From the IMG/VR virus record IMGVR_UViG_3300025617_000018, positions 1 through 64,000 of that record: DNA of 64,000 nt. One strand, written 5' to 3'. Below the pieces are notes generated by a model, which saw nothing but the letters and a program-made list of their open reading frames with translations, was not told where the DNA came from and did no database searches. Each line of letters starts with the position of its first letter. Within the stretch, counting starts at the first letter, position 1. This DNA is from a virus. Both the position numbers and the translations under genes were made by a program. Of the stretch, positions 5,115 through 62,966 are shown piece after piece.

Positions 5115-7344
5115 CTTCTAGTTCCTTACTTTCTACTTCTACAACAAACTTATCTTCTACAAAGTCAATCTTACATTCACCGCCGTTCTTAAGATCACCA
5201 AACAACATTTGTCTACTTAATGGACGTTTGATTTCGGAGTCGATTACACGTTGTAAAGGTCTAGCACCCATTTTACGATCAAAACCTTTGTCAATTAATG
5301 CGTCGAGTGCTGTATCTGTAATTTCAATCTTAATACCTTTAGGTTCAACCATGTCTTTGAGCTCAACAAGGAACTTGCCAACAATCTTGTACATAACTTC
5401 TTTGGTAAGTTTACCGAATGTAATCACGCCGTCAAGTCTGTTACGGAACTCGGGAGCAAAGAACTTCTTAAGATCAGTGTCTTCGTAGTCTTTTTCAAAG
5501 TCGTCGTTAAATCCAATGGCGTTTTTCTCTGCATCTTTAGCACCTAAGTTAGTTGTAAGGATTAACACAGCATTTCTTGCATCCGCAGTCTTACCATTGC
5601 TTCCACTAATAAAGCCGTTATCCATAATTTGTAATAGTATCTGTGACACATCAGGATGTGCTTTTTCAATTTCGTCTAATAACAATACACAGTTAGGATT
5701 TTCTTGAAGTTTTGTAATAAGAACACCTGCGTTATCTTCATAACCTACATATCCTGGAGGACTACCGATAAGTTTTGCTACACTGTGCTTTTCTTGATAT
5801 TCTGACATATCAAATCGTACTAACTCTACGCCTAATTGAGTAGCAAGTTGTTTAGCAGTTTCAGTTTTACCTGTACCAGTTGGGCCCATGAATACAAAAC
5901 TACCAATAGGCTTGTCGTCCGGCTTAAGTCCTGCCTGTGCAACAAGAATTTTATCAACAATACTTTCAATTGCTTCATCTTGACCGTATACACTTGCTTT
6001 TAAATTTTCTTCTAGATTTGCAAGATTGTCATTTTCTTTTTCTGCAACACGATCTTCCGGAATGTTAACCATTTTAGCAAGTTCAAATTGAATTTCTTCT
6101 TCACCTACTACTTTGTTTTCTTCTTGGTTATTAAGTTTAAAACGACTACATGCAACATCAATCAAATCGATTGCTTTGTCTGGAAGTTTCTTATCACTTT
6201 GATACTTTACAGATAGTTTAACAGCAGCTTCAATTGCTTCGTCTGTAATAGTAGTTGCGTGATAGTCTTCGTAGTATTTTTTAATGCCTTGTAAGATGTC
6301 TTTTGCTACTGCCGGAGTAGGCTCGTCGATGGTCACACGTTGGAATCGACGCATAAGGGCACGGTCTTTTTCGAAGAACTTACGATATTCTTCCCAGGTA
6401 GTATTAGCAATAACTTTTAAATTGCCCTTTGCTAAAGCAGGCTTCAACATATTAGCCAAGTCGTTGCTGTCATTCTTGCCACCTGCACCTGCGCCACTCA
6501 TCATATGTGCTTCATCAATAAAACAAATAGTTTTGTCTTTTTTAACCAATGCCTCAAGCACGAGTTTTAGGCGTTCTTCAAAATCTCCGCGATACTTTGA
6601 ACCAGCAAGCATGCCGCTAATGTCTAGATTATAAACTTCATAACCTTTTAAGAAGTTTGGAACATTATCGTTTACAATGTTCCATGCAAGACCTTCTGCA
6701 ATAGCAGTTTTACCTACACCTGGATCGCCCACCATCAATACGTTATTCTTGGTTCTCCGCCCAAGAATAAGAGCAATTTGATCTAATTCTTCTGCACGGC
6801 CAATAACAGGATCAATTTTACCTTTGTTTACTTGTTTGTTTAAGTTTTCGGTATAAGAGCTAAGTGCTTTTGCAGCTTCTGAACTTATTTTGTCATCTTC
6901 TTCGTCTTCGAACACTTCAGAATTAATATATTCAGCAAAACTAATTTTTTCTACGCCGCCTTTTTCTAAGAAATATGTACTGATACTTTTTGTTTCGTTA
7001 ATCGAACTTAATAAAATATCAGTTAGTTCAATATTAGTACGGCCCGCAAATAAAACTTGTGTAAAAGCACGGTTGAGTACACGTTCTACAGTTTGTGTTT
7101 TTTTAGGTTTAAATTTTTCGTCTTCTATATAGAGTTCTTCGCAGTTATTTTTAAGATGATGCTCTAAATTGCTTTTAATATAAGATACATCAGCACCGTA
7201 ACCTTCTAGCATTGAATAAAATTTATCTTCACATAACATTGCAAATAGAAGATGTTCGAGAGTAACATATTCGTGTTTTAATTTTTTTGCATCTTTAACT
7301 GCTTTATCAAATACTAATTTTAACTCTTCTGATGGCTCTACCAT
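5104..7344 (-). CDS. clpA: ClpA-like Hsp100 AAA+ unfoldase
   Basis: A 746-aa double-AAA+ ATPase of the ClpA type. An N-domain (about 1-145) is followed by AAA-1 with Walker A GDPGVGKT (206-213) and AAA-2 with Walker A GPTGTGKT (487-494) and Walker B LLLDEIEKAHP. The long middle domain of ClpB is absent. In AAA-2 an IGF tripeptide (610-612) occupies the place of the IGL/IGF loop by which ClpA/ClpX dock onto ClpP. ClpA unfolds proteins and feeds them to ClpP; no clpP is in the window, so the host peptidase may be used. A near-perfect sigma70 promoter precedes it (7380-7408), pointing to early expression, and AGGAG lies ten bases before the ATG. Confidence 0.92.
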   Translation of the reverse strand: MVEPSEELKLVFDKAVKDAKKLKHEYVTLEHLLFAMLCEDKFYSMLEGYGADVSYIKSNLEHHLKNNCEELYIEDEKFKPKKTQTVERVLNRAFTQVLFAGRTNIELTDILLSSINETKSISTYFLEKGGVEKISFAEYINSEVFEDEEDDKISSEAAKALSSYTENLNKQVNKGKIDPVIGRAEELDQIALILGRRTKNNVLMVGDPGVGKTAIAEGLAWNIVNDNVPNFLKGYEVYNLDISGMLAGSKYRGDFEERLKLVLEALVKKDKTICFIDEAHMMSGAGAGGKNDSNDLANMLKPALAKGNLKVIANTTWEEYRKFFEKDRALMRRFQRVTIDEPTPAVAKDILQGIKKYYEDYHATTITDEAIEAAVKLSVKYQSDKKLPDKAIDLIDVACSRFKLNNQEENKVVGEEEIQFELAKMVNIPEDRVAEKENDNLANLEENLKASVYGQDEAIESIVDKILVAQAGLKPDDKPIGSFVFMGPTGTGKTETAKQLATQLGVELVRFDMSEYQEKHSVAKLIGSPPGYVGYEDNAGVLITKLQENPNCVLLLDEIEKAHPDVSQILLQIMDNGFISGSNGKTADARNAVLILTTNLGAKDAEKNAIGFNDDFEKDYEDTDLKKFFAPEFRNRLDGVITFGKLTKEVMYKIVGKFLVELKDMVEPKGIKIEITDTALDALIDKGFDRKMGARPLQRVIDSEIKRPLSRQMLFGDLKNGGECKIDFVEDKFVVEVESKELEVEA

Positions 7345-17749: not shown

Positions 17750-17753
17750 GAAA

Positions 17754-17798
17754 ACTCCTTATACTTCCTATTAATATAGCATAAAAAGTATAAGGAGT
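17754..17798 (-). promoter_or_regulatory. 13-bp inverted repeat hiding a ribosome site; promoter in loop
   Basis: Arms 17754-17766 and 17786-17798 are perfectly complementary around a 19-base loop. In minus-strand RNA the 3' arm contains the AAGGAG of the 55-aa gene. The -10 box (17773-17778) is in the loop, so RNA starting near 17766 lacks the 5' arm. Read-through RNA from mazG would form the hairpin, which is followed by TTTT and might also attenuate. Confidence 0.75.
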
Positions 17799-17801
17799 CA
17801 A
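17773..17801 (-). promoter_or_regulatory. Sigma70-type promoter (TTGACT, 17, TATATT)
   Basis: TTGACT at 17796-17801 and TATATT at 17773-17778 are separated by 17 bases on the minus strand. Predicted +1 is near 17766, immediately downstream of the loop of the inverted repeat. It should drive the two small membrane genes and the clamp loader. Confidence 0.75.
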
Positions 17802-60730: not shown

Positions 60731-60814
60731 TGGAGTGAGCGACAGGACTTGAACCTGCATAGTCTTACGACACGGATTTGCAATCCGTTGCATAACCATT
60801 TCTGCCACGCTCAC
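60731..60814 (-). tRNA. tRNA-Cys (GCA)
   Basis: Minus-strand cloverleaf with a 7-bp acceptor (GTGAGCG/CGCTCAC), T73 (a Cys identity base) and encoded CCA. Anticodon loop TTGCAAA gives GCA. The anticodon arm matches bacterial tRNA-Cys. The variable region is 13 bases, GTC-GTAA-GAC-TAT, a 3-bp hairpin with a GNRA loop where tRNA-Cys normally has four or five bases. Confidence 0.92.
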
Positions 60815-60818
60815 ATAT

Positions 60819-60902
60819 TGGCACAGGGTGAGGGATTCGAACCCCCTGACTCTCGTCCTGGTTTTGGAGACCAGTGTGACACTCCAACTTCACCGACCCT
60901 GC
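60819..60902 (-). tRNA. tRNA-Trp (CCA)
   Basis: Minus-strand tRNA with acceptor GCAGGGT/ACCCTGT (one G-U), G73 and encoded CCA. Anticodon loop CTCCAAA gives CCA. D-stem GTGA/TCAC, T-loop TTCGAAT. The variable region is 11 bases and folds as GAC-GAGA-GTC plus A, again a 3-bp hairpin with a GNRA loop. Confidence 0.9.
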
Positions 60903-61230: not shown

Positions 61231-61541
61231 TATATACTTTCACCTGGTTCAAAAAACTGGAAGTTTTGACCACTTGTAAATACGCAAGTAGTATTGTTGT
61301 CTTTGTTGACAACTAAAAAACTCCAAGTTTGTGTTTCCGTATTTACCCAAAGTGAATTATATAAAGGGCTGCTATTGCCTTGTGATATGCCCTCACTCAA
61401 AAAAACTAGTTCTTCATTGTACTTATTTTTAACAATATTCAGTACGTCTTGTGTTGGACCACACTGCACAGGTATTTCGTATGTTTTTGCTTTTACTGGT
61501 AGGACAATGAGCAAGAACAGTGCCAATACAATATATTTCAT
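61230..61541 (-). CDS. Exported protein with signal peptide (103 aa)
   Basis: A 103-aa protein with a clear signal peptide (hydrophobic residues 3-17, cleavage after VKA at about 18) and a small mature domain with two cysteines that may pair in the periplasm. No family is recognised. The ATG at 61541 has GGGAG six bases ahead; that ribosome site lies within a strong hairpin (61548-61562), so translation may be restrained. It is embedded in the tRNA cluster. Confidence 0.68.
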   Translation of the reverse strand: MKYIVLALFLLIVLPVKAKTYEIPVQCGPTQDVLNIVKNKYNEELVFLSEGISQGNSSPLYNSLWVNTETQTWSFLVVNKDNNTTCVFTSGQNFQFFEPGESI

Positions 61542-61547
61542 TTTAAT

Positions 61548-61562
61548 CTCCCGTCGCGGGAG
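61548..61562 (-). promoter_or_regulatory. Hairpin containing the ribosome site of the exported protein
   Basis: CTCCCG-CGA-CGGGAG on the minus strand: six G-C-rich pairs and a three-base loop. The 3' strand contains GGGAG, six bases before ATG 61541. Bases 61563-61644 upstream hold no gene I can support. Confidence 0.6.
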
Positions 61563-61644
61563 CAGTTTCAAGACTTACTCGGGTCCTACCTTTCCTGGGC
61601 ACCACTTGCTTGATTATTTTAAAAGAGAAACAAGACTCTTTAAA

Positions 61645-61721
61645 TGGTGCCGTTGAAGGGAGTCGAACCCCCAACCTTCTGGACCTAAACCAGACGCCTC
61701 TGCCAATTGGGCCACAACGGC
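61645..61721 (-). tRNA. tRNA-Leu by anticodon (TAG), class I body
   Basis: Acceptor GCCGTTG/CAACGGC, A73 and encoded CCA. Anticodon stem TCTGG/CCAGA with loop TTTAGGT gives TAG. The D-arm (AATTGGCAGA) resembles Leu tRNAs. The variable region is only five bases (AGGTT) instead of the long arm of bacterial tRNA-Leu, and the T-stem has two G-U pairs. Aminoacid identity is therefore less sure. Confidence 0.8.
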
Positions 61722-61738
61722 ATATATTGTATTTATAC

Positions 61739-61813
61739 TGGTGCTCACGGAGAGAATCGAACTCCCAATCTACGCATTACAAGTGCGTTGCCTTACCGTT
61801 GGGCCACGTGAGC
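61739..61813 (-). tRNA. tRNA-Thr (TGT)
   Basis: Class I tRNA on the minus strand: acceptor GCTCACG/CGTGAGC, A73, encoded CCA, anticodon loop CTTGTAA (TGT), four-base variable loop AGAT, T-loop TTCGATT. Confidence 0.92.
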
Positions 61814-61821
61814 ATACTATT

Positions 61822-61911
61822 TGGCGGAGATAGTAGGATTCGAACCTACGGAACGATTTCTCGTTCGACAAGTTAGCAACCTGCTGCTTTAAGCCACTCA
61901 GCCATATCTCC
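61822..61911 (-). tRNA. tRNA-Ser (GCT)
   Basis: Class II tRNA on the minus strand: acceptor GGAGATA/TATCTCC, G73, encoded CCA, anticodon loop TTGCTAA (GCT), T-arm GTAGG/CCTAC. The variable arm is a 6-bp stem GAACGA/TCGTTC closed by a GAAA (GNRA) tetraloop. Confidence 0.92.
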
Positions 61912-61914
61912 TTG

Positions 61915-62118
61915 TTCGGGACTGTCTTTCTGCTAGGCAAGGCGCAGTCATTCCGAATAAAAGTGGAGTGGGTGGAATAGGGTAACCACCAAGGAAGTAC
62001 TATCCGAAGTACCTTTCTTCACTAGACTTCCTACGTCCTGCACCTCGCTAAAGGACCGGCGCTACCGGCTTTCGGACTACCTTACCCCCCTTCGGCGAGA
62101 GGTATTCGGTCACACTCC
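61915..62118 (-). ncRNA. Candidate structured RNA A between tRNA-Ser and tRNA-Asn
   Basis: About 200 bases with no ORF, much richer in G+C than the surroundings. In minus-strand sense, GGAGTG (62118-62113) pairs with CACTCC (61970-61965), enclosing ACCTC/GAGGT, a CCGG-TAGCG-CCGG hairpin, an AGGTAC/GTACTT hairpin and GGTGG/CCACC. A second domain pairs TTCGG/CCGAA and GACTG/CAGTC (61915-61957). It lacks the tRNA-like end of tmRNA and the conserved cores of RNase P RNA as far as I can see. Processing from the tRNA transcript would give a discrete RNA. Confidence 0.5.
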
Positions 62119-62142
62119 TTTTAGAGTCCGTCGACTCTAAAA
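62119..62142 (-). other. 10-bp hairpin just after tRNA-Asn
   Basis: TTTTAGAGTC-GACG-GACTCTAAAA (minus strand), perfect 10-bp stem and 4-base loop, one base from the tRNA-Asn CCA. No T tract follows, so it is not a classical terminator; it may be a processing or protective element for candidate RNA A or the tRNA 3' end. Confidence 0.65.
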
Positions 62143-62143
62143 C

Positions 62144-62224
62144 TGGCTCCCAAGGTTGGATTCGAACCAACATTGCTTTCGCACGGATTAACAGTCCGCT
62201 GTATTACCTATCTACCACTTGGGA
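62144..62224 (-). tRNA. tRNA-Asn (GTT)
   Basis: Acceptor TCCCAAG/CTTGGGA, G73, encoded CCA; anticodon stem GCGGA/TCCGT with loop CTGTTAA (GTT); T-arm GTTGG/CCAAC. The variable region is 11 bases, GC-GAAA-GC-AAT, a mini-hairpin with a GNRA loop in place of the usual five bases. Confidence 0.92.
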
Positions 62225-62232
62225 ATAAAATT

Positions 62233-62372
62233 TATTAAAAAGCACACTAGGTTTACTATCCTCTTGCTACCTATTGTTGCCCTGCTATGCAGAACAGTTA
62301 CTAGTATCATAGGCTCTCCGCTTTGGACAAGGTTCAGCTTGCGGCCTCACGAGCCTAGTATGCTTTTTAATA
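62233..62372 (-). ncRNA. Candidate structured RNA B with 19-bp closing stem
   Basis: Bases 62233-62251 and 62354-62372 form a 19-bp helix. The single non-Watson-Crick position is G-U in minus-strand RNA but A-C... on the other strand (C-A), which supports the minus strand. Inside are a GGCTC/GAGCC arm extended by CCGC/GCGG and a CTGC-ATA-GCAG arm flanked by TGTT/AACA, giving a multibranch fold. The 140-base element fits exactly between the HAD gene stop (62376) and tRNA-Asn. No ORF or known RNA family was recognised. Confidence 0.6.
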
Positions 62373-62375
62373 TAC

Positions 62376-62966
62376 TTATTTCTGTCCTTCTACAACAATA
62401 TTATATATTTCTTTCCAGTTGCGAACTCGTGTCACTCCACTGTATTCGCCCTGGTTGTGTTTGTGATCCATTAACAAGGATACCAAACCTAAATCTCTTC
62501 CTACTAGTGCATTCTGTGGTTTGTCTTCGACCCAGTAGCAACCAGTATCTGCATACCATTCTAACACTTCGTCTTTGTCAGCACCTGTGTCTAGGTACAC
62601 ATATTTCTCAAATACACTATCTCCAAACATCTCACGCAGGTTCTTTGTGCGTAGGTGTTGCGAGTAGTCGTCGTTACTTAAACTTGTAATAGCATGGAAC
62701 ACATACCCGTGTTCACTGTGCAACTTCTTCACATAATGAATAGCATCTCGTAGTGGCGGAAGTTTACGAATCCAAGCACTTTCGTTGAACATACGAATAA
62801 GACGCATGCCTTCTACTTTTCCTAAACCATACTTGAGATCCATCAAGTATTCTGTTTCAAATCCTGGATTAACACTATAACCGTGTCGATTCATCCACTG
62901 TCCGAACGCATACTCCCAATCGAAGAGGACGCCGTCACAATCTACCAATATTGCCTTTTCTTTCAT
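62376..62966 (-). CDS. HAD-superfamily phosphatase, 5'(3')-deoxyribonucleotidase-like
   Basis: A 196-aa HAD hydrolase. Motif I is VDCDGVLFDW (D9 nucleophile, D11), motif II is the Ser of AITSLS, and motif IV is WVEDKPQNA. The cap and length fit the 5'(3')-deoxyribonucleotidase (NT5C) type, which dephosphorylates dNMPs. It could balance dNMP pools made by host-DNA breakdown. It is first in the unit that continues into candidate RNA B and the tRNAs, with a sigma70 promoter upstream and AAAGG before the ATG. Confidence 0.82.
   Translation of the reverse strand: MKEKAILVDCDGVLFDWEYAFGQWMNRHGYSVNPGFETEYLMDLKYGLGKVEGMRLIRMFNESAWIRKLPPLRDAIHYVKKLHSEHGYVFHAITSLSNDDYSQHLRTKNLREMFGDSVFEKYVYLDTGADKDEVLEWYADTGCYWVEDKPQNALVGRDLGLVSLLMDHKHNQGEYSGVTRVRNWKEIYNIVVEGQK

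Follow-up and report, generated by a model that had tools for sequence, protein, structure and literature searches.

What is the role of a 140-nt stretch that fills nearly all of the space between a nucleotidase-like gene of the HAD superfamily and the tRNA-Asn gene of a phage tRNA cluster? The element was found within a virus record of 64,286 bases, of which 64,000 nt (referred to here as the window) were analyzed. Matches to clamp-loader, DNA-ligase and thymidylate-synthase proteins, together with a close Kyanoviridae match of the HAD gene, suggest that the source is a marine T4-like phage.

Position and strand of the element

The stop codon of the HAD/NT5C-type gene (62376-62378) and tRNA-Asn are separated by 151 nt, and 140 nt of this gap belong to the element, which starts 3 nt past the stop codon and ends 8 nt short of the tRNA (Table 1), in agreement with the close fit described in the initial annotation. 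All genes of the window between 60.3 and 64 kb lie on the minus strand, in the order glycine-zipper protein, 64-aa ORF, HAD/NT5C-type gene, element, tRNA-Asn, manA-like RNA, tRNA-Ser, tRNA-Thr, tRNA-Leu, two small ORFs, tRNA-Gly, tRNA-Trp and tRNA-Cys. There is a promoter-like sequence (TTGACA-17 nt-TACTAT) upstream of the HAD gene, and the minus-strand promoter-like sites listed by a scan include none from the HAD start to tRNA-Asn. The element had also been described as free of ORFs, which is correct in substance, although it is overlapped by two mechanical ORFs, one of 32 aa (minus strand) and one of 156 aa (plus strand, antisense to the HAD gene); the latter matches no Pfam or PHROG family.

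Variable arms were inspected in the tRNAs at 61645-61721, 60731-60814, 60819-60902 and 62144-62224. Bacterial tRNA-Leu is expected to have a long variable arm; the tRNA-Leu(UAG) of the window, at 77 nt, is without one. Such an arm is present in tRNA-Cys, and the variable loops of tRNA-Trp and tRNA-Asn are enlarged.

Table 1. Location of the element, its parts, its neighbors and RNAs in the tRNA clusters of other viral loci (labeled L)
Feature	Position	Strand	Setting or basis
140-nt element	62233-62372	minus	between HAD/NT5C-type gene and tRNA-Asn
HAD-superfamily nucleotidase-like gene (Pfam NT5C, phrog_420)	62376-62966	minus	upstream of element
tRNA-Asn (gtt)	62144-62224	minus	directly downstream of element
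tRNA-Ser (gct), tRNA-Thr (tgt), tRNA-Leu (tag)	61645-61911	minus	same tRNA cluster
5' arm of closing helix, TATTAAAAAGCATACTAGG	62354-62372	minus	pairing map, fold, inverted repeat
3' arm of closing helix, CCTAGTGTGCTTTTTAATA	62233-62251	minus	pairing map, folds
Helix extension, 5' side (four pairs past an A·A mismatch, running into the stop codon)	62373-62377	minus	fold, pairing map
Helix extension, 3' side	62228-62232	minus	fold with flanks, pairing map
102-nt interior	62252-62353	minus	predicted irregular arm, apical hairpin TGTTCTGC-ATA-GCAGGGCA
manA RNA (RF01745)	61961-62142	minus	between tRNA-Asn and tRNA-Ser; full-model alignment 1-192
manA-like RNAs below gathering score	L198:1501-1674; L200:1501-1674; L201:1501-1697		between tRNA genes
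Pre-tRNA-Ser RNA	L006:5256-5320; L050:5700-5763; further contigs L165-L178		14 contigs in all

A closing helix above chance and an ordinary interior

On the minus strand, the ends of the element pair without a break over the 19 positions given in the initial annotation. Of these pairs, 18 are Watson-Crick and one is U·G, and the mean pair probability is 0.97. When the flanks are included in the fold, four extra pairs form past an A·A mismatch, giving 23 pairs with one mismatch. The wobble does inform on the strand, as had been claimed: the U·G would become A·C on the plus strand, where the predicted fold is weaker (-43.1 vs -46.3 kcal/mol). Helix pairing and gene order therefore favor reading the RNA on the minus strand.

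None of 200 shuffles folds as stably as the minus-strand element (z -3.64), and its helix is the only one of at least 17 bp on either strand of the window when at most one G-U pair and a span of up to 300 nt are allowed. Under a slightly looser G-U rule, 58 whole-window shuffles yielded one helix of at least 19 bp; when any number of G-U pairs was permitted, 20 window shuffles yielded four helices of at least 19 pairs, so the length of the helix is not overwhelming on its own. Beyond length, the case is strengthened by the scarcity of G-U pairs and by how exactly the element fits the gap, and the closing helix is a real RNA helix, above chance. Elsewhere in the window, a minus-strand hairpin at 17753-17799 also has 19 pairs, more than one of them G-U.

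The interior behaves differently from the whole. Folded alone, these 102 nt reach -23.1 kcal/mol; shuffled versions average -24.6 (z +0.50) and are at least as stable in 139 of 200 cases, so the z of -3.6 for the whole element comes from the closing helix. The two further arms that had been proposed inside the element may exist, but they are without statistical support. With the significance placed in the helix rather than the interior, the data agree with a helix that serves to base-pair.

Folds of growing 5' prefixes of the element add a speculative detail, as bases of the 5' arm are paired with interior bases 69-74 in prefixes shorter than about 130 bases and the closing helix has formed by base 134, which suggests that the interior might hold the 5' arm until the 3' arm is transcribed. 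Such a switch, together with the 3' arm that ends GTGTGC-TTTTT-AATA, would be expected if a GC-containing stem followed by UUUUU ended part of the HAD transcripts ahead of the tRNAs, either as a plain terminator or as an attenuator that is bypassed when the 5' arm pairs with the interior instead. We consider termination or attenuation improbable: the loop would be 102 nt long, the U run lies inside the helix, where it is paired to an A run, a terminator scan finds none at the element, and the switch is based only on CTAG palindromes and minimum-energy folds.

Relatives of the element

In the collections searched, the only other copy of the element is in IMGVR_UViG_3300025608_000012, which is no independent evidence because it shares 8,695 nt with the window without a single difference. 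An exact 23-mer search of viral_contigs returned this contig alone, and blastn revealed no homologue of the element in 82 and then 178 loci, or in phages and plasmids. A covariance model of the element (R2) found no diverged copy in 95 loci (half of 190), and nothing in 49 whole records, in the loci L192-L197 or in 83 manA/tRNA loci; the model was built from one distinct sequence and reaches near relatives only, so these negative results argue only weakly for absence. A 20-mer search of genome_contigs gave a Marinobacter site with 21 consecutive nt in common with the element, which was taken as a chance match.

No confident match to a known family, the outcome that would have counted against the initial annotation, was obtained from Rfam 15: nothing at the element reaches a gathering score or E<0.01, and the single match is a chance one to a microRNA (mir-3045, plus strand, E 4.1). 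We also weighed a tRNA or tmRNA remnant, given that permuted tmRNA occupies, or lies close to, the position following the HAD gene in some relatives; it was set aside, as Rfam shows no such match for the element with an E value of 10 or less. A miniature inverted-repeat element was likewise discarded, as the record contains a single copy and no second inverted pair. Neither the element nor the pre-tRNA-Ser RNA described below is reported in the literature searched (open-licence papers).

These results bear on whether the element is a functionless chance inverted repeat, or the relic of a small inverted-repeat insertion. Its single copy, its lack of relatives, its ordinary interior and the existence of related phages without it are what such an origin would leave, but the helix is above chance and sits exactly in the gap, and the signs of a mobile repeat are missing: the virus record has no second copy, and of the 13 contigs listed with an arm-like 17-mer, the 12 other than the identical contig carry a single arm and no second inverted arm pair. 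We therefore view a chance or relic origin as quite unlikely.

The manA-like RNA of the cluster

The RNA directly downstream of tRNA-Asn is a copy of manA, an RNA of marine and T4-like phages. It scores 51.5 bits (E about 1e-12), just below the gathering score of 55.2 bits, and judged by this alignment it is a divergent relative of RF01745; the element itself does not match the manA model. Matches at E<=0.01 occur in 4 of 50 records (the twin of the window and three others), none of them above the cut-off, and in the three non-twin records the RNA is again flanked by tRNA genes rather than placed in an mRNA-leader setting. The 2010 description (PMC2864571) assigned manA to potential 5' UTRs, for the most part those of genes for metabolism and photosynthesis. 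A general association of manA with tRNAs was rejected, as a same-strand tRNA lies within 400 nt in only 11 of the 80 pattern-found loci examined (of 120).

Helix-closed RNAs in other phages

With the HAD gene as bait, 80 viral loci were collected and 42 of them scanned by ARAGORN; several of the 42 have tRNA clusters or a permuted tmRNA nearby. Permuted tmRNA genes lie past the HAD gene in L027 (4581-4974, within a few nt of it), L031 (4932-5316) and L004 (5388-5739), in agreement with Rfam, and their tag peptides differ.

In two of the loci, L006 and L029, a body of ~125 nt directly 5' of tRNA-Asn (recognized by eye in L029, where neither ARAGORN nor Rfam calls it) is closed by 14+8 pairs, and the elements fold with z of -5.2 and -5.0. 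Rfam searches to E 5 returned only chance-level hits for them. Both-side changes are seen in 3 of the 22 pairs and two pairs are broken in one sequence; this comparison is weak, as it involves two sequences only and 60 of 500 shuffles reach its score. The L006 and L029 elements are like that of the window in place and architecture, not in sequence. A helix before tRNA-Asn is not required in L170, L171 and L176, because tRNA-Asn there directly follows a protein gene without such a helix.

In L006 and L029, promoter-like sequences and a boxA-like sequence (the exact pattern in L006, a variant recognized by eye in L029) also lie between the HAD gene and tRNA-Asn. The regions at L006:4800-5060 and L029:4850-5210 have the appearance of tRNA-operon leaders, with TTGACA/TATAAT-like promoters, a boxA-like sequence reminiscent of rRNA operons, and a leader segment (CTCTRCTTACACATACAC) that could pair with a repeat on its upstream side or with one on its downstream side. 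The window, in contrast, has no boxA beyond chance (with at most two mismatches allowed, 11 sites vs 15 expected). L006 and the window also share the word GGTGCCCAGGA past tRNA-Leu (L006 ~6225-6236; 61541-61644 in the window), found by eye, which is perhaps another conserved operon RNA.

A general rule that gaps between tRNAs are helix-closed was not upheld: of the gaps of 45-300 nt (53 in all, 26 unique, 22 non-redundant, the gap of the window element being left out), 3 of the 22 reach p<=0.02 and 4 reach p<=0.05. In L198, whose cluster also has a manA RNA, a helix (GACTACTAGG/CCTAGTAGTC) surrounds ~85 nt after tRNA-Arg (990-1096); its ACTAGG/CCTAGT is common to the element, and the alignment was unconvincing as a sign of relationship.

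A covarying RNA before tRNA-Ser

A core sequence (TGCATACAGTATAGCTGATGCA) common to L006 and L050 was used to scan viral_contigs, which placed an RNA of 64-65 nt with a three-way junction in the tRNA clusters of 14 contigs. In 13 of these, tRNA-Ser begins within 6 nt of the match to the corresponding model (R1); in the other, L167, the sequence at hand ends first. An alignment of six distinct sequences shows both-side changes in 5 of the 12 pairs of P1 and 2 of the 3 pairs of P3; P2 is invariant, and 97.9% of cells pair. The covariation score is reached by none of 500 shuffles and by no slid control. At gathering thresholds, the 12 loci scanned with Rfam, among them L006 and L050, gave no families other than tRNA and tmRNA, and we propose this RNA as a candidate new family.

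Since this RNA keeps its closing helix by compensatory change, closing helices are maintained in the tRNA clusters of related phages. The element was considered as a member of R1 because the two have short words in common, and it is not one: the best score in the window is 8.3 bits (E 1.8), away from the element. The slot before tRNA-Ser is held in the window by the manA-like RNA. With its same-strand genes, a helix above chance, and helix-closed RNAs in the clusters of other phages, the locus supports the original description of a structured element in a tRNA operon.

Proposed processing of a joint transcript

In bacterial rRNA operons, helices formed by leader and trailer sequences are processed by RNase III, an enzyme that prefers about two helical turns. 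The element has the form of such a stem, insofar as it is known here from sequence: a near-perfect helix of about two turns, made from the two flanks of an RNA body in a stable-RNA operon. The rRNA stems enclose rRNA, whereas this helix encloses a 102-nt body that is not rRNA.

We place about an even chance on the element being a cis-acting helix for processing and insulation in a transcript that the HAD/NT5C-type gene would share with the tRNAs. The gene and the tRNA cluster would be transcribed together on the minus strand, and the ends of the spacer would form a helix, about two turns long, reaching from the stop codon to beside tRNA-Asn. Host RNase III would then cut this helix to yield an mRNA with a protected 3' end and a tRNA precursor, the 5' end of tRNA-Asn, 8 nt downstream, would be made by RNase P, and an RNA of 100-140 nt would be released as a by-product that may persist. 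The position, the strand fit, the helix and its excess over chance are direct observations; processing by RNase III and RNase P is a reasonable inference from 19 pairs (23 with one mismatch) located 8 nt before a tRNA, bearing in mind that RNase III sites are not reliably predictable from sequence. RNA processing is thus the best-supported role, and a functional RNA product is possible.

Such a product would be the main point if the interior were a stable phage small RNA that is released through the helix and acts in trans, like T4 RNAC and RNAD (species 1 and 2 RNAs). The T4 genes rnaC (139 nt) and rnaD (119 nt) are non-coding and lie inside the T4 tRNA cluster (PMC3014915; PMC9697503); their RNAs are late on Northern blots (PMC9697503), and their roles were called unknown in both a 2010 review (PMC3014915) and that 2022 study. 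The element is similar in size and is likewise encoded among phage tRNA genes of its own strand, and the tRNA clusters of related phages hold a conserved covarying RNA and known RNA families. However, it is a predicted RNA of unrelated sequence (R2 finds nothing in the T4 locus, L083) that has no counterpart of the T-arm-like hairpin in the RNAC fold, its interior folds no better than chance, and the R2 and blastn searches gave no relative of that interior, so we regard a trans-acting RNA as unlikely. ROOL and GOLLD are further phage RNAs of unknown function that are often found near tRNA islands (PMC12286853); they are far larger (many GOLLD RNAs exceed 800 nt), and Rfam matches neither in the window.

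A broader proposal, which we hold to be rather unlikely, is that the tRNA operons of marine T4-like phages are nests of exchangeable, helix-closed RNA cassettes, each cut out via its own helix and acting in trans during infection. It would take in the window element, the L006 and L029 elements, the pre-tRNA-Ser RNA, the manA RNAs and the permuted tmRNAs, with the helix as a common release device and the interior as variable cargo.

Implications for phage tRNA clusters

The window element is an orphan, which adds one example to the helix-closed RNAs of tRNA clusters. If the tRNA clusters of marine phages regularly carry such RNAs, the function of T4 RNAC and RNAD would become approachable by comparison, and the best handle for that comparison is the 64-65-nt pre-tRNA-Ser RNA with its two covarying helices.
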